A DNA stretch of 8,908 bases from Planctomycetia bacterium. GTDB taxonomy: Bacteria; Planctomycetota; UBA1135; GCA-002686595. The stretch spans positions 1 to 8,908 of the forward strand of contig SXKQ01000068.1 of NCBI GenBank assembly GCA_005778045.1, written 5' to 3'. This document shows positions 1-8,908 of the stretch, in pieces (within the stretch, counting starts at the first letter, position 1; every line of letters begins with the position of its first letter). The translations under genes were made by a program, and so were the position numbers. A model generated the notes under the pieces. It did not search any database and had not been told where the DNA came from. It saw only the letters and a list, made by a program, of their open reading frames with translations.

Positions 1-55
1 CACCGCGAATCCCTCAACGGGAGCGCGGCGCGGCACGTTCCAGTGGCTCTGCGGG

Positions 56-1150
56 CTACTTGGCGGGCTTCTCGAGCTCCGCGAGCAACTCGTCGATGGC
101 CTTCTCGAGCGCCTTCGGCGGCGGCGCGCCCAGCCACTTCTCGCGGATCCTGCCCGTGCCGTCGATCAGCAGCACGGTGGGATAGCCACCCACCTTGAAC
201 TGGCGCGAGATCGCGTTGTTGGTCCCGCCGGTCCACGCGCTGCGCCACGTGACCTTCTGCTCCGCGGCCTTCTTGGCGTACTCATCCTTGCTCGAGTCCG
301 TGTTCACGCCCACGATCGCGAAGGGGCGGTCCTTGTACTTCTCCACGAGCGACCGCTCGTGCGGGATCATCTCCCGGCAGGGCGGTCACCAGAAGCCCCA
401 GAAGTCGAGCATCACCACCTTGCCGCGGTAGTCGGAGAGCTTGAACTTCACGCCGTCGGTGTCCGTGGCCTCGAAGTCATCGGGCAGGCCGCCCTTCTCG
501 TACTTCGCGCCCGCGCCCTTCTCGACCAGCGCCGTGGTGGCCGCGGTGCCCGCGAACTCGGACGCGAGGCGCGCTTCGATCGCCTTCGCGCGCGCAAGCT
601 CCTCGGGCGTCGCGTTCTTGCCCGTCAGGCGTCCGACGAGCGCAGCGAGCGCACTGGCCGAGACTTCCTTCGACTTCGACGCGGTCGCGAGGGCCTCGAG
701 CTGCGCGCGCACCCACTCCTCGTCGAACCAGATGCGCTGCCGCGCGAGCGTGCGCGGCAAGTCCGTGCCGGCCCACGGCTGGCTGGCGTACTTCCCGAGA
801 AGCTCGGCCATGAGGCGCGACTTCGTCGCCACGGTCTCGGACTTCGCACCGGGCAGCTTGTCGCCTTCCTCGAGCATCCACAGCAACGCGCGGCCATCGC
901 TCGCGCCGAGCTCCTCGAAGCGCGGCCAGAACGCGATCACTGGGTGCTGCTTCTCGAGCGCCTCGGCCTTCACCTTGTCGGTCTTCGAGAGCGCGCGCAG
1001 CTCGTCGCGCCACGTCTTGACGGCGGCCTCGAACTCCTTGACGAGCCCGGGGTAGGTCGCGGTCGCGTCCTGTCGCGACGTCACCGCGGCGGCGCTCTCG
1101 ATGCCCGGGTGCGGCGGGACCGTGAGAGAGAGCAGTAAGGCTAGGATCAT
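56..1150 (-). CDS. TlpA/thioredoxin-like selenoprotein with U-P-P-C active site (in-frame TGA read as selenocysteine)
   Basis: Predicted extracytoplasmic thiol-disulfide oxidoreductase of 364 residues. The frame is open from the start at 1150 except for one TGA at 386-388 (residue 255), and ends at TAG 58-56. Residues 1-22 form a hydrophobic, weakly charged export signal (ILALLLSLTV). Residues 30-215 are a helical, Cys-free region I cannot assign. Residues 222-364 are a TlpA-like redoxin domain: DDFEATDTDG, then KVVMLDFWGFW, TGA, PPC, PHERSLVE, GVNTD, and the cis-proline loop GGYPT with Pro324. TGA replaces the first Cys of W-C-x-x-C, and Cys258 is the only Cys in the mature protein. The start at 1150 follows a GAGGTGA Shine-Dalgarno 7 nt upstream; an in-frame ATG at 1192 lacks this. 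What is seen: the intact frame around the TGA and an adjacent hairpin. What is inferred: Sec insertion. The alternative is a recent TGC-to-TGA nonsense change or a sequencing error. Automated callers would split it at the TGA into ORFs of about 268 and 104 residues. Confidence 0.85.
350..388 (-). promoter_or_regulatory. Candidate bacterial SECIS stem-loop
   Basis: On the minus strand a hairpin begins inside the TGA. The basal stem GACCGC (387-382) pairs perfectly with GCGGTC (356-351), and a further U-G wobble (388 with 350) extends it. After an internal loop, CGGGA (376-372) pairs with TCCCG (366-362) around a 5-nt loop GATGA (371-367). Bacterial SECIS elements lie just 3' of the UGA inside the coding region and usually have a G at the start of the apical loop, as here. 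The loop G is about 15 nt after the UGA, slightly closer than in E. coli fdhF (about 18-19 nt by my recollection of that sequence), so SelB recognition is not certain. Confidence 0.65.
386..388 (-). other. In-frame TGA codon, proposed selenocysteine (residue 255)
   Basis: The minus-strand codons read TTC TGG TGA CCG CCC TGC CGG GAG ATG, that is F-W-U-P-P-C-R-E-M. The stop codon occupies the N-terminal, nucleophilic cysteine position of the thioredoxin CXXC motif, the usual replacement site in UXXC selenoproteins. TGA ends three other genes here (kinase at 1223-1221, PIG-L at 4500-4498, TPR lipoprotein at 7364-7366), so genome-wide reassignment of TGA is unlikely. Confidence 0.8.
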
Positions 1151-1157
1151 CGCGGGT

Positions 1158-1164
1158 TCACCTC
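1158..1164 (-). promoter_or_regulatory. Shine-Dalgarno fixing the selenoprotein start
   Basis: The minus strand reads GAGGTGA, 7 nt before the ATG at 1150-1148. It is the clearest ribosome-binding site in the window and favours this start over the in-frame ATG at 1192. Confidence 0.7.
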
Positions 1165-1174
1165 GTGCGGCGCA

Positions 1175-1188
1175 GGGGCGATCGCCCC
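1175..1188 (-). repeat. Perfect 14-bp palindrome in the selenoprotein leader
   Basis: GGGGCGATCGCCCC is fully self-complementary. It lies downstream of the TATGCT box and about 10 nt upstream of the Shine-Dalgarno. It could be an operator for a dimeric regulator or the end of the kinase transcript, although there is no T-tract. Palindromes of this kind also arise by chance at this GC content. Confidence 0.4.
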
Positions 1189-1204
1189 CCACTGGGTACC
1201 CAAC

Positions 1205-1210
1205 AGCATA
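1205..1210 (-). promoter_or_regulatory. -10-like box for the selenoprotein gene
   Basis: TATGCT on the minus strand lies between the kinase stop (1221) and the selenoprotein start. No convincing -35 is visible 16-18 nt upstream. The same hexamer precedes the oxidase gene at 8347. If it is used, the gene has its own promoter and a leader of roughly 48 nt. Confidence 0.4.
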
Positions 1211-1220
1211 CGCCCGTGAC

Positions 1221-3335
1221 TCAGCGCCCGAGAGTCTGGAATGCGGGCAGGCCGCGCAGCATCTCGAACTCGGAGCTGCGCAGTTCGCTGCGGATGTAGT
1301 AGCCGCGCGACTGCGCCAGCGTCAGGTACGCGAGCGCCTCGTCAGGGTTGCCGAGCACGGCGTGCACCTGCGCGCTCATGCACGCGGTAAAGCCGTCCTT
1401 GGGAGCGATCTGGTGCGCGGTGTCGAGCTCGGCGAGCGCCTCGGCGCGCAGCCCCATGCGCGCGAGCAGCATGGCGAGATGCAGGCGCGTGTCTTGGTCG
1501 TCCTGCACGCGGGCGAGCTGGCGGCGCGCGGCCGCGATGCCGCAGTCGGCCATCTCGATCGCCTCCTCGTAGCGGTCGAGGCGCTGCAGCACGGAGTACA
1601 GGTGGTCGTAGGTCGAGATGTAGCCCGGACGGATCGCGATCGTGCGCTTGAGGAGCGGCGAGGAGCCCTTGAAGTTGCCCTCGCGCGAGAGCAGCGCGCC
1701 GAGCAGGCGGTGGGCGAGCCACTCGTCGTGGTTGAGCTGGATCGCAAGGCGGTATTCGCGCTGCGCGTCCACGGCGAGGCCGGTCAGGTGATAGCCGAAG
1801 CCGAGCGACGTGTGAGCCTCGGCGCAGGCGGGATCGAACGCGAGCGCGCGCCGCGCCTCTTGGCGGCTCTCCGCGAGAAACGACTCGTCGCCGTCCCAGT
1901 ACAGGTACTTGCGGACCAGCGCCTCGGCGAGCCCCGCGTGCGCCAGCGCGCAACGCGAGTCGTGCTCGAGCGCGCGCCGGAAGAGCGAGATCGACGCGAG
2001 CAGGTGCTTGGTCATGCCGCGGTGCAGAATCTCGTGCCCACGCAACGCGCTGGCCCGTGCGGCCTCCGGATCGCGCGCGCGCGCCTCGTCAGAGTTACGC
2101 AGCGGGTGTTCGGTGAACTGCCGGCGCAGGTGGCGCACGGCGGCGCGCACGAGTGCGCCCTGCACGGCCCACTCGTCGGGATCGCTGTGCTCGATCGTGT
2201 CGCGCCAGACCTCGCGTGTGCGCGTGAGGTCTTGCTGCGGACTCGCCTCGAGCACCACGAGCAGTCTCGCGCGCGGTCCATCGACCGAGAGTTCGCCGCG
2301 CAGCGTGAAGTCGACGCCCATGTTCGAGGGCACCCGGTCATCGCCGAGCAGCGTGGTCGAGAGACCCGCACGCGCGAGCTCCGAGGCGATGTCCTTGCGC
2401 AGGTCCGCGGCGAGGCCTGAATGCGCGGGATTCGAGCGAATCGGCGCCAGAGCGAGGTGGCCCGAGAGGTGCGCCGCGTGCTCGCGTGCGCCGCGCGGAG
2501 CGAGCCCATCGACGATCGTGAGCAGCACGCCGTGTGCCACCTCGGCGCTCGCGTAGCGCCGCGCCGGATCCGCGTCGAGGCAGCGCGCAATGAAGTCCTC
2601 GAGCGACTGCGGCACGCCCGGGCGCACCTGCGACAGCGTTCGCGGGCGGGCGTCGAGGATCGCCATGCAGACCTCGGGAAACGAGTTGCCGGGGAACGCG
2701 AGCTGGCCCGAGACCGCGTGGTACAGCACCGAGCCGAGCGCGAACACGTCGCTGCGCACGTCGAGTTCCTCGCCGCGCACCTGCTCGGGGCTCATGTACA
2801 GCACCGTGCCGACCAGCATGCCCTGCTGCGTGATGGTCGACTCGCCGCGCGCTCGCGCGATGCCGAAGTCGAGCAGCTTCACGGCACCGTCGTGCAGCAC
2901 CATGATGTTCGCGGGCTTGAGGTCGCGGTGGATCAGCCCGTGGCGATGCACCAGCGCCAGCGCGCTCGTCACCTGCAGCGCGATGCGCAGCGCCTCCTCG
3001 AGACCGAGCAGCTGGTCCTTGATGATGCGGTCGAGCGTGCGGCCCTGGAGGTACTCCATGGCGATGTAGCGCTCGCCCTCGAACTCGCCGTACTCGTAGA
3101 TCGTGGCGATGCTCGGGTGCACGAGGTTCGAGGTGTGGCGCGCCTCACGCTCGAAGCGCTGGTTCGCCTCCGGGTCGATCTCCACGTGCGCGCGCAGGAT
3201 CTTGAGCGCCACCGTGCGCTCGAGCCGCACGTCGCGGGCGCGGTAGACCGCCGACAGCGGCCCCTCGCCGAGCCGGTCCTCGACCGGGTCGTACTCGAAG
3301 TGGGCGAAGCGGCGCTTGTCGCGGGTCTGGGTCAT
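1221..3335 (-). CDS. Cytoplasmic Ser/Thr protein kinase with TolB-like and TPR regions
   Basis: A 704-residue Hanks-type kinase fused to a scaffold. The kinase domain (about 17-275) has a glycine loop LGEGPLSAV with Ser28 in place of the third Gly, the ATP lysine in VALK (Lys45), helix-C Glu64, catalytic loop HRDLKPAN (Asp138, Lys140, Asn143), DFG at 156-158, SPE at 182-184 and Asp196. All catalytic residues are present, so it should be active. Residues about 305-407 resemble the TolB/FlgO-like module of adenylate-cyclase and CadC-type regulators (DLRKDIASELARAGL, FTLRGELS, then EVWRDTIE). Residues about 425-704 are TPR-like helical repeats with the LR-GLPAFQTL type ending common in such proteins. 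No membrane segment is visible between the domains, unlike PASTA/PknB kinases, so it is probably cytosolic. The signal and substrates are unknown. It lies 71 nt after the acetyltransferase-like gene and has its own candidate promoter. Confidence 0.93.
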   Translation of the reverse strand: MTQTRDKRRFAHFEYDPVEDRLGEGPLSAVYRARDVRLERTVALKILRAHVEIDPEANQRFEREARHTSNLVHPSIATIYEYGEFEGERYIAMEYLQGRTLDRIIKDQLLGLEEALRIALQVTSALALVHRHGLIHRDLKPANIMVLHDGAVKLLDFGIARARGESTITQQGMLVGTVLYMSPEQVRGEELDVRSDVFALGSVLYHAVSGQLAFPGNSFPEVCMAILDARPRTLSQVRPGVPQSLEDFIARCLDADPARRYASAEVAHGVLLTIVDGLAPRGAREHAAHLSGHLALAPIRSNPAHSGLAADLRKDIASELARAGLSTTLLGDDRVPSNMGVDFTLRGELSVDGPRARLLVVLEASPQQDLTRTREVWRDTIEHSDPDEWAVQGALVRAAVRHLRRQFTEHPLRNSDEARARDPEAARASALRGHEILHRGMTKHLLASISLFRRALEHDSRCALAHAGLAEALVRKYLYWDGDESFLAESRQEARRALAFDPACAEAHTSLGFGYHLTGLAVDAQREYRLAIQLNHDEWLAHRLLGALLSREGNFKGSSPLLKRTIAIRPGYISTYDHLYSVLQRLDRYEEAIEMADCGIAAARRQLARVQDDQDTRLHLAMLLARMGLRAEALAELDTAHQIAPKDGFTACMSAQVHAVLGNPDEALAYLTLAQSRGYYIRSELRSSEFEMLRGLPAFQTLGR

Positions 3336-3343
3336 CGGCGTCC

Positions 3344-3365
3344 GGGGAGCTATCGGCCGCTCCCC
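3344..3365 (-). repeat. Hairpin in the kinase leader
   Basis: A perfect 7-bp inverted repeat, GGGGAGC and GCTCCCC, with an 8-nt loop. It ends 8 nt before the kinase ATG on the minus strand, where a Shine-Dalgarno would be expected but none is seen. It may limit translation initiation or be a weak terminator for the upstream pair; there is no T-tract. Confidence 0.45.
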
Positions 3366-3377
3366 CCGTGGGGCCTG

Positions 3378-3383
3378 ATTCTA
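3378..3383 (-). promoter_or_regulatory. -10-like box for the kinase gene
   Basis: TAGAAT on the minus strand, in the 71-nt gap between the acetyltransferase-like gene (stop at 3407) and the kinase start at 3335. It sits in the loop of an imperfect inverted repeat (3370-3376 with 3383-3389). No -35 is recognised. A leader of about 35 nt would include the 3344-3365 hairpin. Confidence 0.4.
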
Positions 3384-3406
3384 GGCTCCCGACCCCGTCC
3401 CGCGCC

Positions 3407-4501
3407 CTACACGCGCAGGAAGATGCGTGCGCGCCACAGGACGTAGAGCACCGTCCACTTGAGCGCGAGGCCGCCCCCGGCCACCAGCGCCGGGTGCAGC
3501 TTGAGCGCCCCGCGGCCGGCGAGCAGGAGCTTCGCGAGCGCGTCGAAATCGACAAACGACTGCAGCACGTAGATCGTGATGGCGTTCGCCCCGATCACCT
3601 CGAGCGCAAAGGCGCCGCGCTCAAATTTCCACACGTCGATCACTAGGTGGAACACGCACAGAAGCAGCAGGCTCCAGCCCGCGCACCACAGCACGAAGGA
3701 GCTCGTCCAGAGGTTCTTGTTGAGCGGGAACACGAGGGCCCACAGCGCGCCGAGCGCGAGGCAGCCGAGCGCGCCCGCCGCAAGGCCGCTGACGCGCCGC
3801 GCCGGCTCGAGGTCGCGTCGCTGCAGCCACTCTCCCGCGAGCGCGCCGCACAGCGCCGTCGCGACCGCTGGGACCGTCGCGAGCAGGCCCTCGGGGTCGC
3901 GTACGTCGCGGTAGAGGCGTCCGGGGAGGAAGCGCTGGTCGAACCAGTCGACGAGGTTCGTGCCCGGCTCGAGGTTCGCGGCGCCGAACCCGGGCACCGG
4001 GATGAGCGTCAGCGCGGCCCAGTAGCCCACGAGAATGCCGACGACCCAGCCGACGCGCGCGCGCGTGGTCCTCGTGGCGAGCACGATCCACGCCGCGAGC
4101 ATCCACGCCAGACCAATGCGCCCGAGCACGCTGGCACAGCGCAGCGTGGCGAAGTCGAACTTGAGCAGCCCGCTGTAGATGAGCCCGAGCAGCACGAGCG
4201 TGAGCCCGCGGCGCAGCGAGTGCCGCGCCAGCTCCGCATCGCTCGCGCCCTCCGCGCGACGGCGCGCGAGGCTCAGCGGCAGCGAGACGCCCGCGAGGAA
4301 CAGGAACAGCGGGAAGATCAGGTCCCAGAACGTGAAGCCGTTCCACTCGACGTGCTCGGTCTGCGCGCGCGCCGCGTCGAGCCACGCCCAGTCGTTCGAG
4401 TCGGCCCACGCCTGCAGCATCGCGCCGCCGCCGGCGATCCAGAGCATGTCGAAGCCGCGCAGCGCGTCGAGCGAGCGCAGGCGACCGGTGGTCTGGCTCA
4501 A
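3407..4501 (-). CDS. HGSNAT/NagX-type (COG4299/DUF5009) membrane acetyltransferase-like protein
   Basis: A 364-residue integral membrane protein with about ten hydrophobic helices. It opens with the family signature RLRSLDALRGFDM, followed by H50-x-x-W-N-G and FWDLIFPLFLFLAG. His50 matches, by pattern, the acetyl-accepting His of human lysosomal heparan-alpha-glucosaminide N-acetyltransferase. Later signatures are DPEGLLATVPAVATAL (202-217), FPLNKNLWTSSFVL (258-271) and GANAITIY (304-311). Family members are thought to move an acetyl group from acetyl-CoA across the membrane onto an amino sugar; the bacterial substrates are mostly unproven. I place the start at TTG 4501-4499, which shares TTGA with the upstream PIG-L stop and gives MSQTTGRL just before the conserved motif. 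The first in-frame ATG is inside that motif (residue 19), so it is too late. No Shine-Dalgarno is visible, so translational coupling is likely. Confidence 0.9.
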   Translation of the reverse strand: MSQTTGRLRSLDALRGFDMLWIAGGGAMLQAWADSNDWAWLDAARAQTEHVEWNGFTFWDLIFPLFLFLAGVSLPLSLARRRAEGASDAELARHSLRRGLTLVLLGLIYSGLLKFDFATLRCASVLGRIGLAWMLAAWIVLATRTTRARVGWVVGILVGYWAALTLIPVPGFGAANLEPGTNLVDWFDQRFLPGRLYRDVRDPEGLLATVPAVATALCGALAGEWLQRRDLEPARRVSGLAAGALGCLALGALWALVFPLNKNLWTSSFVLWCAGWSLLLLCVFHLVIDVWKFERGAFALEVIGANAITIYVLQSFVDFDALAKLLLAGRGALKLHPALVAGGGLALKWTVLYVLWRARIFLRV

Positions 4502-5451
4502 GGCAGGGACTCGTAGTTGGTGCCCGCGCTCTCGCTGTACTCGCGCACCGGCGGCTGCGCCTCGCGCAGGCGCGTGAACAAGGCCTCCGCGCGCAGCGAG
4601 GCCTGGGCGCTGCGGTCGCCGAACAGCAGGAACTCCTCGCGATCGCCGCGCCCCATGTAGAGCTGCATCGAGCCCTGCGACTTGTGCGCCGCGATGGCCC
4701 AGTTGACGACGATGCCGTAGTCGAGCTTGTCCTGATGGCCGAGCTTCTCGCGTCGGTCGCACAGGAACGGGCCCGCCTTCGCGCCGCTCTCCGGCGCATA
4801 GACGAGCGTCAGGGGATCGGAGGCGGAGCGCACGCTCGAGACCAGCATCACGGGGCGCCGCTCCGCGGGGACAGCGAGCACGGCCTCGGCCGCGAGGGCG
4901 GTCGCCGCCTTGTGGTGCGCGTGCGACTCCTCGCGGGGCGCGAGCGCGAGCACGTAGTCGTAGGAACCCTTGTCCAGCGCGCTCGCGAGCGCACGCCGCA
5001 CGCGCGGCAGGTTCCAGGCGGTCGCGTCGGGCCCGAGCACCTCGTCGAGGTCCTGCGTGTAGCGGTGGTCGCGCTCGCCGAGGAACGTGATCGAGGCGAC
5101 GCCGAGGATGTGCGCCGACTCGCGCAGCTCGCGCTGGCGAATCGCGGGCAAGAGCGCGCGCCCGATCGCCTCGTCGGACAGCGCCGCTCCGTACAGCGGC
5201 TCCGCCAGCGTCGCGTACTTGAAGCCGCCTTCGCCGTTGGTGATCACGAGCAGGTCGCACGTCGCGCCGAGCTGGTGCGAGAGCCGGTAGAGCGTGGCGC
5301 CGAACGCGAGCTCGTCGTCGGGGTGCGCGATCACGCCGAGCACGCGCGGGCCGGTCCCGGCCGAAGGCCGCTCGACGTCGATGCGCTTGCCGGAGAGGCC
5401 TGTGCACGCGGGGGCGAGCAGCGCGACGAGCAGGAGGAGGATGTGTCGCAT
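4498..5451 (-). CDS. PIG-L/LmbE-family N-deacetylase, exported (probable lipoprotein)
   Basis: A 317-residue zinc-dependent N-deacetylase of the LmbE/GlcNAc-PI de-N-acetylase family. The start at 5451 gives a signal peptide MRHILLLLVALLAPAC; Cys16 may be lipidated, but the box A-P-A-C lacks the usual Leu at -3. The zinc and catalytic motif AHPDDE is at 42-47 (His43, Asp45, Asp46). It is followed by LLVITNGEGGFKYAT (67-81), the ExxHAHHKAA segment (His177/179/180), which supplies the distal zinc His, and AHKSQGSM at 255-262. Family members remove acetyl from GlcNAc-type amino sugars (mycothiol, bacillithiol, GPI or secondary-metabolite precursors). An exported copy more likely acts on envelope glycans or imported sugars. 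It is translationally coupled to the acetyltransferase-like gene and divergent from the TPR lipoprotein gene. No Shine-Dalgarno is obvious. The substrate cannot be told from sequence. Confidence 0.92.
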   Translation of the reverse strand: MRHILLLLVALLAPACTGLSGKRIDVERPSAGTGPRVLGVIAHPDDELAFGATLYRLSHQLGATCDLLVITNGEGGFKYATLAEPLYGAALSDEAIGRALLPAIRQRELRESAHILGVASITFLGERDHRYTQDLDEVLGPDATAWNLPRVRRALASALDKGSYDYVLALAPREESHAHHKAATALAAEAVLAVPAERRPVMLVSSVRSASDPLTLVYAPESGAKAGPFLCDRREKLGHQDKLDYGIVVNWAIAAHKSQGSMQLYMGRGDREEFLLFGDRSAQASLRAEALFTRLREAQPPVREYSESAGTNYESLP

Positions 5452-5587
5452 GGGGTGGAGCGCGGAACTCGGGAAGGGCGTCGATGCGCGGGCGAGCCGC
5501 GCGGCCCCATGGTAATGCGCGCAGGCTCGCGACGCCCGGTGTGGCCGCGCCGCGCGACGCGGGTAGAGTGCGCAGAGGTAGCCCCCC
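5452..5587. promoter_or_regulatory. Divergent intergenic region (PIG-L gene / TPR lipoprotein gene)
   Basis: 136 bp between two divergent start codons. It must carry a promoter in each direction unless transcription enters from outside. The plus-strand -10-like box is clear (5564-5569). On the minus strand the best candidate is TACCAT at 5514-5509, which is weak. A 6-bp inverted repeat GCGCGG/CCGCGC (5486-5491 with 5497-5502) lies in the putative PIG-L leader. Confidence 0.5.
5564..5569 (+). promoter_or_regulatory. -10-like box for the TPR lipoprotein gene
   Basis: TAGAGT, 18 nt before the ATG at 5588. AGAGGT (5574-5579) lies 8 nt before the ATG and can serve as a Shine-Dalgarno, giving a leader of only about 11-12 nt. 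The same hexamer occurs before the next gene at 7397. No -35 is recognised. Confidence 0.45.
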
Positions 5588-7366
5588 ATGCGACGAACCC
5601 TGTCTCTCGCGCTGCTCGTCCTGCTCGCCGCCTGTCGTTCCGCCGCGCCGTCCGAGCCGGAGGGTCTCGCGCCCCTGCTCGAGCGCGCGCGCACGGAGCT
5701 CGACTCCGGCGCCTCCCTCGACGCGCTCGTCACGATCGACGATGCGCTCGTTCTCTCACCCAAGTCGCTCGCGGCGTGGCAGCTGCGCGCCGAGGCTCTG
5801 CTCGAGGCTTCCACCGTGCGCGGGGACGCGAACTTCCTCGAGGACTCGCTCGCAGCCTGGCAGCGCGCGCTGGAGCTCGGCGCTGGACCGCAGGCGCTGT
5901 TTGGCGCGAGCCGCGCGGCGCGCGGGGTGCTGAAGAGCGATCTCGCGCTCGACTTCGCGCGCCGTGGGCTCGCTGCGCAGATGCAGCCGAGCGCGACGGA
6001 GCTGCGCATCGCGAGCGAGGCGTGCTTCGACGCGTACATCGCGCGTCGCCAGGCCAATGAGCAGGCTCCGGAGCTCTTCGCCGAGACCGAGGCGCTGCTC
6101 CTGCGCGCGCTCGATGCCGCGCCGCAGGATCCGTGGCCGCCGGTGCAGCTCGCAAACCTCTACCAGTGGGAGGGGCGCAACGATGGTGCGCTCGAGCTGC
6201 TCGCGCGCGCGGTCGAGCTCGACCTCGCCAATGAGCCGCTGCACGCGCGCCTCGTCGCGCTGATGCGTTCGCTCGAGGGCCCCGAGAGCGTCGCGTCGTT
6301 CTACGCGAGCCTGTGCGCGCGCCAGCCCGACGCCGCGCTGCCGCACTGGTTCGCCGCGCAGGAGCTGTTCGAGCTCGCGGTGCCGGTCGTCGCGACCGAT
6401 CCAGGCGCCGGAGCGCGCTTCGAGCGCGCGGAGTCGTTCTACCGCCGCTGCCGTGAGCTCGAGGCGAGCTACGCGAGCGCCTGCACGGGCTTCGAGGTCA
6501 TGTGTCGCGCAGGTGCGGGCTGGACGCGCTTCCACGCCGGCGAGCTCGACGCCGCCGAGCGCATGTTCCGTTCGATGGAGCAGCTCTTCCCCGGCGGACT
6601 CGAGTGGCGGCTCGAGGGTCGCGTGCGCTCCGGCGTCGAGGGCCTGCAGTTCGTCGCCGACCGCTGGCTGCGCGGCGCTGCGGATTCCCTCGGCGGATTC
6701 GAGGTCGGCGCCGCGTCCAAGGCCGCGCGCATCTACGCCTACCTGCACGCCTACCGCCCGGCCGACGCGGACTTCGCCAACAACGCGGGCTTCTTCCACC
6801 GCGAGTGGGGCGTCGGCCTCGTGAGCGTCTCGCGCGAGCACCGCGCGCTCGCCGCAGCCGCGAGCGACTCCGCCGTGCGCGACCTCGAGCTCGCCCTCGC
6901 CGGGCGCACCTTCGCCCAGGCCAGCGACGTGCTCGCCGCGAGCCGCGATGCCTACCTCGCCGCCGCCTCGCTCGCGCCGCAGGACGTGCGCGTGGTCAAC
7001 GACGCCGCGCTGATCCTCGTCTACCACTTCCCCTCGCGCGTCGACGAGGCCGAGCGCCTGCTCCTCTCCGCCGTCGAGGCCGGCGCGCGGCAGAAGGACT
7101 CCGGCGAGCTGCCCGCGCAAGCGCTCGACATGCTCATCGAGGCCTGGGGCGACGCGCACCAGAACCTCGGCGTGCTCGAGCTCATCCACCGTCGCAACCC
7201 CGTCCGGGCGCGCGCGTGGTTCGACACGACCGTCGCCATCGGCCCGCAGCCGCGCGTCGGCCGCGAGTGGGTCACCCAAGTCGCCCTGCGCGCCTGCGAC
7301 GCCCTTGCTCAGGGCCAGACCTTCGCCCCCGAGGACCTCGACCCGCGCATCGCGCTGCTCGAGTGA
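5588..7366 (+). CDS. TPR-like repeat lipoprotein
   Basis: A 592-residue lipoprotein. Residues 1-15 are a signal peptide with charged start (MRRTLSLALLVLLAAC) and a textbook lipobox L-A-A-C, with lipidation at Cys16. The rest is alpha-helical and repeat-rich. TPR-like units occur near 43-60 (DALVTIDDALVLSPKS), 84-110, 165-212 (LLLRALDAAPQDPWPPVQLAN, broken by gaps, then ALELLARAVELDLAN), 316-335, 445-475 and 485-500. Residues 340-410 (with FANNAGFFHREWGVG) are not obviously TPR. Such proteins are protein-protein scaffolds at the inner or outer membrane; no enzymatic motif is seen and the partner is unknown. The start is supported by AGAGGT 8 nt upstream and by the signal peptide. It is transcribed away from the PIG-L gene and ends 46 nt before the next gene. 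Its repeat-type bias resembles the TPR part of the kinase, but I see no specific shared segment. Confidence 0.88.
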   Translation: MRRTLSLALLVLLAACRSAAPSEPEGLAPLLERARTELDSGASLDALVTIDDALVLSPKSLAAWQLRAEALLEASTVRGDANFLEDSLAAWQRALELGAGPQALFGASRAARGVLKSDLALDFARRGLAAQMQPSATELRIASEACFDAYIARRQANEQAPELFAETEALLLRALDAAPQDPWPPVQLANLYQWEGRNDGALELLARAVELDLANEPLHARLVALMRSLEGPESVASFYASLCARQPDAALPHWFAAQELFELAVPVVATDPGAGARFERAESFYRRCRELEASYASACTGFEVMCRAGAGWTRFHAGELDAAERMFRSMEQLFPGGLEWRLEGRVRSGVEGLQFVADRWLRGAADSLGGFEVGAASKAARIYAYLHAYRPADADFANNAGFFHREWGVGLVSVSREHRALAAAASDSAVRDLELALAGRTFAQASDVLAASRDAYLAAASLAPQDVRVVNDAALILVYHFPSRVDEAERLLLSAVEAGARQKDSGELPAQALDMLIEAWGDAHQNLGVLELIHRRNPVRARAWFDTTVAIGPQPRVGREWVTQVALRACDALAQGQTFAPEDLDPRIALLE

Positions 7367-7374
7367 CGCGCATT

Positions 7375-7393
7375 CGAGCGCTGCGCGCGCTCG
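7375..7393 (+). terminator. GC-rich hairpin after the TPR lipoprotein gene
   Basis: A perfect 7-bp stem, CGAGCGC with GCGCTCG, and a 5-nt loop TGCGC. It begins 9 nt after the TGA stop (7366) and is followed by no T-tract, so at best it is a weak or factor-assisted terminator. It also abuts the -10-like box of the next gene and could be part of its control. Confidence 0.35.
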
Positions 7394-7396
7394 CGC

Positions 7397-7402
7397 TAGA
7401 GT
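7397..7402 (+). promoter_or_regulatory. -10-like box for the unknown 261-residue gene
   Basis: TAGAGT with exactly 10 nt to the ATG at 7413 and no Shine-Dalgarno between. Transcription starting 6-8 nt after the box would leave a leader of only 2-4 nt. A poor -35 match (TTCGAG, 7373-7378) is 18 nt upstream. Confidence 0.45.
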
Positions 7403-7412
7403 CTTGCGCCCC

Positions 7413-8198
7413 ATGGCTGCCGCACAGGATCCGGAACCCAAGCCGCTCGCCGAGCTCGCGCCCTTCGAGGAGGGCGACTTCCATGCGCTGACGGAGGCCC
7501 TCGGGCGCGATCCGCAGTACAACGACCGGCGGCTCGTAACGCGGCGCAAGCTGACCTCGATCGCGAAGCTCGCCGTCGACGAAATCGCGGCTGAGGTGGC
7601 GGGAAAGGGCGGTGCGATCGAGCTGCAGAGCCGCACGAGCCTGCACCAGCCGCACATGTTCAACCACATGCGCGTGCGGCGCATCTGGGCCTACATCACG
7701 CGCGGAAAGAAGGAAAAGGCGCGGCTCAAGCAGGTGCTCGGAGCGGAGCTAGCGAAGGACCTCGACTCGTCCTACCGCAACGCGTACCTGTGCGTGGCCG
7801 TCGAGGAAGCGGCCATCGAGGTCAGCCTGCGCATCCATCCGGATGCGTGGTTCGACGGGCAGAACCTCGTGCACCGCACGCAGAAGGAGGGCTACGCGCT
7901 CCTCCTGCCGTTCCTGAACGAACTCGACGGCTTCCGCCTCAAGCTCGACAACTGGAAGGGCGAGTGGATCTGCGGGAAGCTGACCAGCGACAAGCTGGTC
8001 GAGTTCTTCCGCTACTACAAGCCGGGCGAGCATGGACTCGCGGTCGAACAGCGCCTGCCCGCGCCGCCTGGCGGGCGCGGCAACGCGCTCGCAGAGGACG
8101 TGCCCGAGATGCTCGTGCTCGAGCTGCGCCGGCTCGCGCCGCTCTATCGCCTCGTCGCGTGGTCGCAGGAGTCCGACCACCTCTTCAAGCCGCGCTAG
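7413..8198 (+). CDS. Conserved-looking protein of unknown function, 261 residues
   Basis: I do not recognise the family. The protein is soluble, with no signal peptide and no membrane segment. It has an acidic, Pro-rich start (residues 1-20) and then a mixed helical/strand region. Striking segments are SRTSLHQPHMFNHMRVRRIWAYI (73-95; His/Arg/aromatic-rich, shown by its ends), RNAYLCVAVEEAAIEVSLRIHPDAWFDGQN (122-151, in part), NWKGEWICGKL (180-190) and VEFFRYYKPGEHGL (196-209). The strand-like VSLRIHPDAWFDGQN and KGEWICGKL segments, together with the two acidic runs, could form an alpha/beta fold, but no catalytic motif can be named. The start at ATG 7413 is chosen because upstream in-frame codons run through the -10-like box and into the previous gene. 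It ends in TAG at 8196-8198, 164 nt before the next gene. Codon use matches its neighbours, supporting real coding. Confidence 0.8.
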   Translation: MAAAQDPEPKPLAELAPFEEGDFHALTEALGRDPQYNDRRLVTRRKLTSIAKLAVDEIAAEVAGKGGAIELQSRTSLHQPHMFNHMRVRRIWAYITRGKKEKARLKQVLGAELAKDLDSSYRNAYLCVAVEEAAIEVSLRIHPDAWFDGQNLVHRTQKEGYALLLPFLNELDGFRLKLDNWKGEWICGKLTSDKLVEFFRYYKPGEHGLAVEQRLPAPPGGRGNALAEDVPEMLVLELRRLAPLYRLVAWSQESDHLFKPR

Positions 8199-8362
8199 GG
8201 ACTCGCAGCCGTCGCGTGCGCGCGCTCGTGCCGGACGAACCGGACGAGCCGAGTGGCGCCCGGTCCTCGCGCGGGCTCGCGGCGCTTTCCATGCGCGAGC
8301 CGCCGTGCACGCACTTCGCCTTCGCCCGAGAGGTCCGTGGGGCGGATATGCTGCGCCATCGC
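8199..8362 (+). other. Intergenic region before the oxidase gene
   Basis: 164 nt with no credible small gene. It carries a direct repeat of CCGGACGA (8231-8238 and 8240-8247, separated by one base) and the TATGCT box near its right end. An in-frame ATG at 8291 could extend the oxidase by 24 residues, but those residues are not family-like. Confidence 0.4.
8347..8352 (+). promoter_or_regulatory. -10-like box for the oxidase gene
   Basis: TATGCT, exactly 10 nt before the ATG at 8363. This is the same spacing as the box before the 7413 gene and the same hexamer as before the selenoprotein gene. It overlaps an in-frame ATG at 8348, which would then lie upstream of the transcript and not be used. 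Confidence 0.45.
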
Positions 8363-8908
8363 ATGGGGAGCGCGCGGGCGATCGTAGTCGGAGCCGGGGT
8401 CTCGGGACTCTCGAGCGCGATCCGGCTGCTCGAGCGCGGGGTCGCGGTCGAGCTGTGGACGCGCGAGCTCCCCTCGCGCACGACCTCGGCCGTCGCGGGC
8501 GCGATCTGGTACCCGTACAAGGTCGCGCCGCGCGAGCGCGTGGCGGGCTGGGCGCGCGCGACGTACGCGGCGCTGGTGCCCCTCGCGAAAGATGCGGCGA
8601 GCGGGGTGGCGATGTGCCGCGGCGTCGAGCTCCTGCCGCGCGGGCTTTCTGACGAGGCCGCTGAGTTCCGCTCGGCTGCGGGCGACGTGCGCGCGCTGCA
8701 CCCCGAGCTCCTGCCCGACGGCTTCGACCGCGGCTTCGAGCTCAGCGTGCCCGTGGTCGAGATGCCGCTGTACCTCGAGGGGCTCATGGCGCGCTTCCGC
8801 GCGCTCGGCGGCGAGCTCGTCGTGCGGGCGCTCGACTCGCTCGCGCCCGCCCTCGACGCCGCGCCGCTCGTCGTGCACTGCGCGGGCCTCGGCGCCCGCG
8901 AGCTCGTC
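8363..8908 (+). CDS. FAD-dependent D-amino-acid oxidase family protein (3' end outside the window)
   Basis: The first 182 codons of a DAAO/DASPO-type flavoenzyme; the family is usually about 310-350 residues, so 130-170 are missing past the window edge. Residues 5-33 are the Rossmann beta-alpha-beta that binds FAD (IVVGAGVSGLSSA, with Gly10, Gly12, Gly15). SAVAGAIWYPYK (43-53 or so) matches the conserved segment in which eukaryotic DAAO and DASPO have T-x-x-A-G-x-W-x-P. VPVVEMPLYLEGLMARF (129-145) and VVHCAGLGARELV (170-182) match the strand and flavin-adjacent motif just before the second half. Family reaction: D-amino acid plus O2 to a 2-oxo acid, ammonia and H2O2. The substrate residues (Tyr/Arg in the C-terminal half) are not in view. 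ATG 8363 is preferred because it starts directly before the Rossmann strand; ATGs at 8348 and 8291 are in frame but precede non-family residues. Confidence 0.88.
   Translation, partial: MGSARAIVVGAGVSGLSSAIRLLERGVAVELWTRELPSRTTSAVAGAIWYPYKVAPRERVAGWARATYAALVPLAKDAASGVAMCRGVELLPRGLSDEAAEFRSAAGDVRALHPELLPDGFDRGFELSVPVVEMPLYLEGLMARFRALGGELVVRALDSLAPALDAAPLVVHCAGLGARELV

Follow-up and report, generated by a model that had tools for sequence, protein, structure and literature searches.

Selenoproteins of thioredoxin-like redox families with selenocysteine (Sec, U) in a UxxC motif have been described before, as far as the available portions of the sources go. The table of the review PMC13188914 lists a thiol-disulfide isomerase-like protein (cd02966, UxxC), a Redoxin family protein (PF08534, UxxC) and a UGC-containing TlpA disulfide reductase, and the review also covers Prx-like thiol:disulfide oxidoreductase selenoproteins. 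A thiol-disulfide isomerase-like UxxC selenoprotein is reported in PMC1088965, related UxxC families are mentioned in PMC2398784 and PMC9312934, and predicted bacterial selenocysteine insertion sequence (SECIS) elements are given for the Sargasso selenoprotein families. For Planctomycetes, PMC4807772 reports selenoproteins and sel genes, and its supplementary selenoprotein table may include related genes. Here, we analyze a stretch of 8,908 nucleotides from a Planctomycetia bacterium (contig SXKQ01000068.1, positions 1 to 8,908; hereafter the window) and report that a gene on its minus strand, at positions 56 to 1150, is with high probability a complete selenoprotein gene. It would encode a probably exported TlpA/ResA/DsbE-type thiol-disulfide oxidoreductase with Sec in place of the attacking Cys (U255-P-P-C258), mounted on a TPR/HAT-like scaffold, with Sec inserted by means of SelB and an RNA hairpin (hairpin II). 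This reading is carried by the open frame, its conservation, the constraint on the RNA, the predicted fold and the sel genes in genomes that carry relatives of the gene.

The cd02966 and PF08534 proteins share with this gene a thioredoxin-like redox family and the UxxC motif, but the parts of the sources at hand describe neither a helical N-terminal domain nor an invariant SECIS for them, a comparison by description only. The Prx-like selenoproteins have both UxxC and UxxU forms, as do the relatives reported here (UxxU in L097 and L099), but they are placed under PF00578, and the available description, the sole basis of comparison, gives no helical N-terminal scaffold. The UGC-containing TlpA disulfide reductase likewise combines a TlpA/ResA-like domain with Sec, according to the same table, but its motif is UGC whereas ours is UxxC (UPPC), and the corresponding model WAxxUGC_long (NF041054) gives 32 bits where the cut-off is 300. 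Unlike the ResA/TlpA/DsbE (CcmG) reductases, the protein has Sec in place of Cys and an additional helical domain of about 185 residues. By word counts, Planctomycetes are unmentioned in the texts of PMC13188914 and PMC1088965, and a term search of PMC12013277 and PMC5029168 gave no match. Our literature search, which had most subscription papers and all supplements outside its scope, came across neither a planctomycete TlpA-like selenoprotein, nor the present architecture, nor a SECIS that is invariant. Since UxxC TlpA-like selenoproteins already appear in the table of PMC13188914, what may be new is the SECIS and the architecture rather than the kind of protein. The reading made earlier from the sequence alone (the sequence-only reading) had taken the gene's architecture as undescribed; this stands for the layout of export signal, helical region and UPPC domain, which we did not find in the literature searched, but not for the TlpA-like UxxC kind as such. 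The helical N-terminal domain, the invariant SECIS, a shifted second class of hairpin and the UxxU relatives look new.

The coding sequence runs from an ATG at position 1150 to a TAG at 58-56 and is interrupted by a single in-frame TGA at 386..388 (minus strand, as are all features below unless a plus is given), which corresponds to residue 255, the first Cys position of WCxxC. When this TGA is read as Sec, the product has 364 residues and the active site FWGFW-U255-P-P-C258, with 109 residues between the TGA and the TAG. Cys258 (TGC, 377..379), the second active-site residue and putative resolving thiol, is intact. The product has no Cys or Sec apart from residues 255 and 258, and its N-terminal part is therefore free of Cys. 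The sequence-only reading had put the TGA (388-386) precisely on the first Cys position of WCxxC, with the frame resuming behind it, the second Cys kept and a Cys-free N-terminal region, and it proved accurate on each point.

Two Pfam matches span the TGA, AhpC-TSA at residues 225-337 (72.4 bits, cut-off 26) and Redoxin at residues 225-348 (66.5 bits, cut-off 26.6). The C-terminal domain (residues 225-360; 71..478) is predicted to adopt a TlpA/ResA/DsbE-like thioredoxin fold with the WCxxC place that characterizes the TlpA/ResA-like family; the NCBIfam ResA model (NF002854) scores 77.7 bits against a cut-off of 170, and the protein lies under every NCBIfam cut-off listed. The N-terminal domain (residues 33-215; 506..1054) is all helical in a TPR/HAT-like arrangement, contains no Cys and is predicted to fold independently. 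It is preceded by a hydrophobic leader (residues 1-29; 1064..1150) which, judged by eye, is probably an export signal. The predicted structure has low confidence over residues 1-30 (predicted local distance difference test, 51-56), and similar leaders are present in homologues. Going by its leader, the protein is probably exported to the cell envelope.

With respect to conservation, we compared the gene with protein homologues (120 listed of 339) and with DNA loci, namely, the best 80 of 542 confirmed relatives (contig scan with alignment A1, protein similarity). Among the 120 listed homologues, 33 end exactly at DF[W/Y]GxW, the TGA point, including P0002, which is the window's truncated form. 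Full-length Cys homologues exist as well, with WCGPC at the active site (P0009, P0010, P0011, P0013, P0014, P0016, and P0018). The sequence-only reading had expected either TGA or Cys at this codon in close relatives, and that is what we observe: of the best-matching genes at the best 80 loci, 77 have TGA as the first active-site codon and 3 have Cys there (L007, L019, and L037, the last of which also holds a TGA paralogue), and the second position is Cys in 80/80. The recurrence of the truncation point in 33 of 120 homologues and of TGA at 77 of 80 loci is more than chance would give, and the same TGA has been assembled independently in other genomes. By record title, the 80 loci belong mostly to Planctomycetota, with three from Verrucomicrobiota (L069, L071, and L077) and two from Armatimonadota (L021 and L079). 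An in-frame TGA aligned with the redox-active Cys of homologues is what is expected of a selenoprotein.

These data also bear on two other explanations. If the TGA were a true stop, the product would be mainly helical and 254 residues long, and the conservation downstream would reflect rare, regulated readthrough; the 33 truncated proteins in predicted proteomes and an N-terminal domain predicted to fold alone are in keeping with this. Such a product, however, would include half a thioredoxin fold, some 30 residues long, the position in question is Cys in full-length relatives, and selA accompanies the SECIS pattern described below, leaving the explanation very improbable. A nonsense mutation or assembly error in a pseudogene would look identical in one sequence, as a lone stop in an otherwise open frame, and one decayed family copy does exist (L111), with the hairpin kept and many stops around it. 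Against this stand the TGA in 77 of 80 loci, synonymous codons frozen past the TGA, and ratios of nonsynonymous to synonymous substitution rates (dN/dS) past the TGA of 0.26, 0.36, and 0.32 relative to L001, L002, and L003, compared with 0.20, 0.27, and 0.63 ahead of it. Purifying selection therefore persists, and the downstream decay that the sequence-only reading had named as counting against a selenoprotein is absent. We consider a pseudogene scarcely credible; the translation with Sec, the Pfam matches across the TGA and the dN/dS past it all indicate a complete selenoprotein gene.

The candidate SECIS, hairpin II (CACGAGC-GGUC-GCUCGUG; 344..361), occupies nucleotides 27-44 counted from the T of the TGA, inside the HERSLV codons, with its apical loop 31 nt past the UGA; we refer to this arrangement as class A. 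The bacterial SECIS (bSECIS) model, as given in the available part of PMC13188914, asks for a loop of 3-9 nt with G in its first two places, a stem of 4-16 bp, a UGA-to-loop distance of 16-37 nt, and a minimum free energy of at most -7.5. Hairpin II satisfies this model, with a GGUC loop, up to 7 bp, a distance of 31 nt, and -8.2 kcal/mol for the 6-bp core. Regular expressions caught 84 distinct TGA sequences in the 80 loci and the window, missing some genes, such as that of L008 and the one matched in L057, each of which has TGA. Codons 9-14 encode HERSLV in 65 of the 84, and every one of these 65 spells HERSL as CAC GAG CGG TCG CTC. Arg, Ser, and Leu have six codons each, and conserved upstream Leu, Ser, and Arg residues use 4-6 codons.

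In 30 carrier genomes picked from the 80 loci, the 16-nt core of the hairpin occurs in 66 copies, spread over 28 of the genomes (reversed control, 1), and 62 of these follow the T of a TGA at a distance of 28 nt. The 62 comprise 59 intact WUxxC frames, two UxxU frames (L097 and L099), and L109, where the core lies close to the start of a contig and some bases are unknown. Of the remaining four, one is L102 (a Cys gene, WCRPC), one is the decayed L111, and two, L115 and L116, represent one unrelated place in two related genomes. Across 199 Planctomycetota genomes, the full pattern, which misses class B members (see below), gives 50 matches in 31 genomes, with none for the reversed control. The hairpin module is also found in the three Verrucomicrobiota loci.

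A second, smaller hairpin (hairpin I, CGGG-7 nt-CCCG; 362..376) lies between the UGA and hairpin II and may be an accessory part. In 85 class A sequences, which include loci picked by the hairpin itself, its pairs are kept in 86.2% of cells, compared with 27-58% when the pairing is slid; because of that selection, the invariance of hairpin II is taken from the 65 sequences only. The third base of codon 7, which closes hairpin I, is C in 82 of the 85 and the opposite base is G in 81, with an A-U replacement in one sequence. Furthermore, TAC outnumbers TAT by 53:1 at codon 7, versus 48:16 at a conserved upstream Tyr in the 65 sequences (P = 3e-4).

Most relatives without HERSLV have a hairpin 7-8 nt further downstream (class B), for example, GGCGCU-CGUGG-AGCGCC, whose loop lies 38 nt from the UGA, just beyond the 16-37 nt bSECIS range. 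Pairing was scored in 20 of 24 class B rows (18 distinct), leaving out L164 and L165, which belong to a different subfamily, and L166 and L167, whose hairpins are class A-like. We observe pairing in 81.0% of cells versus 23-42% when slid, and four of seven pairs are changed on both sides; among 500 shuffles, none matched the observed pairing or covariation score, and four pairs were reached by 22. On a tree that leaves out sites with short flanks, the hairpin class switches four times among Sec rows, a rough count in which class B means all non-HERSLV rows except L166 and L167 and thus includes L164 and L165.

The machinery for Sec insertion was searched in 20 genomes carrying TGA loci, also picked from the 80. 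The genes selA, selB, and selD are above cut-off in 20/20 and tRNA-Sec in 19/20, compared with 1 (selA), 2 (selB), 2 (selD), and 5 (tRNA-Sec) of 14 named controls, which makes tRNA-Sec the least specific marker. For the window's own organism, sel genes are presumed from those in the genomes of L001 and L002, both of which have the kinase gene ahead of the redoxin gene as well; with the carrier genomes standing in for it, the absence of selB or selC, which had been named beforehand as speaking against a selenoprotein, was not seen apart from the one genome without tRNA-Sec. The exact SECIS pattern goes together with selA, found in 29 of 31 pattern-bearing genomes versus 107 of 168 others (Fisher P = 6e-4, not corrected for relatedness). 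An internal TGA is present in selD itself in 19 of the 20 carrier genomes. In 19 fetched selD stretches, a regular expression found 12 TGA sites; six have a GGU-type loop 32-33 nt past the TGA, in five the loop lies at 26-27 nt, and L180 lacks a 5-bp hairpin. GGU-type loops about 32-33 nt past the TGA and resembling the redoxin SECIS are seen in selD of G001 (L168; GGUCC loop) and in L177 (G004), L178 (G007), L181 (G008), L182 (G006), L183 (G013), and L184 (G005). That the UGA is read as another amino acid, by an altered genetic code or near-cognate suppression, would fit the open frame and nothing else that we found, and it is barely conceivable given that the upstream kinase gene of the window terminates normally with TGA (1223-1221), that the TGA falls at the redox-active position where other homologues have Cys, and that the carrier genomes hold sel genes, including selD with its internal TGA.

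Several observations weigh against the interpretation as a selenoprotein with a SECIS. Folding of the single sequence is not significant (z -1.40 and -1.28), the minimum-energy fold of 61 nt pairs differently from hairpin II, and codon-shuffle folding is weak, with P <= 0.05 in 12/63 class A, 3/24 class B, and 0/10 Cys genes. Rfam gave no match apart from mir-557, which turned up by chance. TGA occurs with no clear hairpin at L021, L057 (3533), and L079, and two of the 31 pattern-bearing genomes are without selA. In addition, no tRNA-Sec above cut-off is seen in G001, the genome of L001, which is the nearest of the loci fetched; in G002, the tRNA-Sec gene lies 2.6 kb past selD, and because the contig of G001 stops 1.9 kb past selD, we take its tRNA-Sec to be in missing sequence beyond the contig end. 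On balance, the conservation of the TGA, the dN/dS, the hairpin and the sel genes of the carriers strongly support what the sequence-only reading had proposed, namely, a selenoprotein.

In the mechanism that we propose, SelB carrying Sec-tRNA would bind hairpin II while the ribosome stands at the UGA, and Sec would be inserted instead of termination. In the cell envelope, Sec255 would then attack a substrate disulfide and Cys258 would resolve the mixed selenylsulfide. The enzyme would probably be re-reduced by a CcdA/DsbD-type membrane protein, and the helical part may serve as a docking scaffold.

Related forms occur in several genomes. Two paralogues in G019 (L097 and L099) have TGA at both active-site positions (UxxU) and a single hairpin, which lies 31 nt from one UGA and 22 nt from the other, with helical and redoxin parts open. 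L102 (G022) is a Cys form (WCRPC) that retains the exact 16-nt SECIS core, and a very similar protein in G023 (L106) has TGA; L102 seems to have exchanged Sec for Cys recently, leaving the SECIS behind. L164 (G002) and L165 (G001), in the genomes of L002 and L001, belong to a different TlpA-like subfamily with FFAYW-TGA-GPC, probably another UxxC selenoprotein.

With respect to the gene neighborhood, a Ser/Thr kinase with TPR lies upstream in the window (1221..3335; Pfam Pkinase, 165 bits) and adjoins the redoxin gene in L001 and L002 too, where it is 90-91% identical. The window further contains a protein with sub-threshold DUF5009/HGSNAT matches (3407-4600, minus) and a long antisense open frame across the selenoprotein gene (2-1138, plus); long antisense open frames are common in high-GC DNA. 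Downstream of the redoxin orthologue, L001 (5080-8815) encodes a BipA/TypA GTPase as well as a protein whose matches to multihaem cytochromes are weak, with one barely above the Pfam cut-off and none a full-length stretch.

Where annotation interprets each TGA as a stop, only half of the protein is recorded for these genes. Restored, they add a selenoprotein family to Planctomycetota that is often multicopy within a genome, the exact SECIS pattern being present in 31 of 199 genomes. A SECIS that is invariant over wide protein divergence is a clean case of what SelB recognizes and of how an RNA signal constrains a protein. We lean, by a modest degree, toward the view that in this planctomycete family the mRNA and not the protein dictates PHERSLV, as a module of hairpin I (CGGG-CCCG) and hairpin II (ACGAGC-GGUC-GCUCGU) that would be recognized by the lineage's SelB, is unchanged across diverged paralogues and L069, L071, and L077, appears to have moved by 7-8 nt inside the gene on more than one occasion (class A/B), and may serve two UGAs with one copy in UxxU members. 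If this is true, the specificity of SelB and the cost of coding a SECIS would be directly measurable within one gene family.
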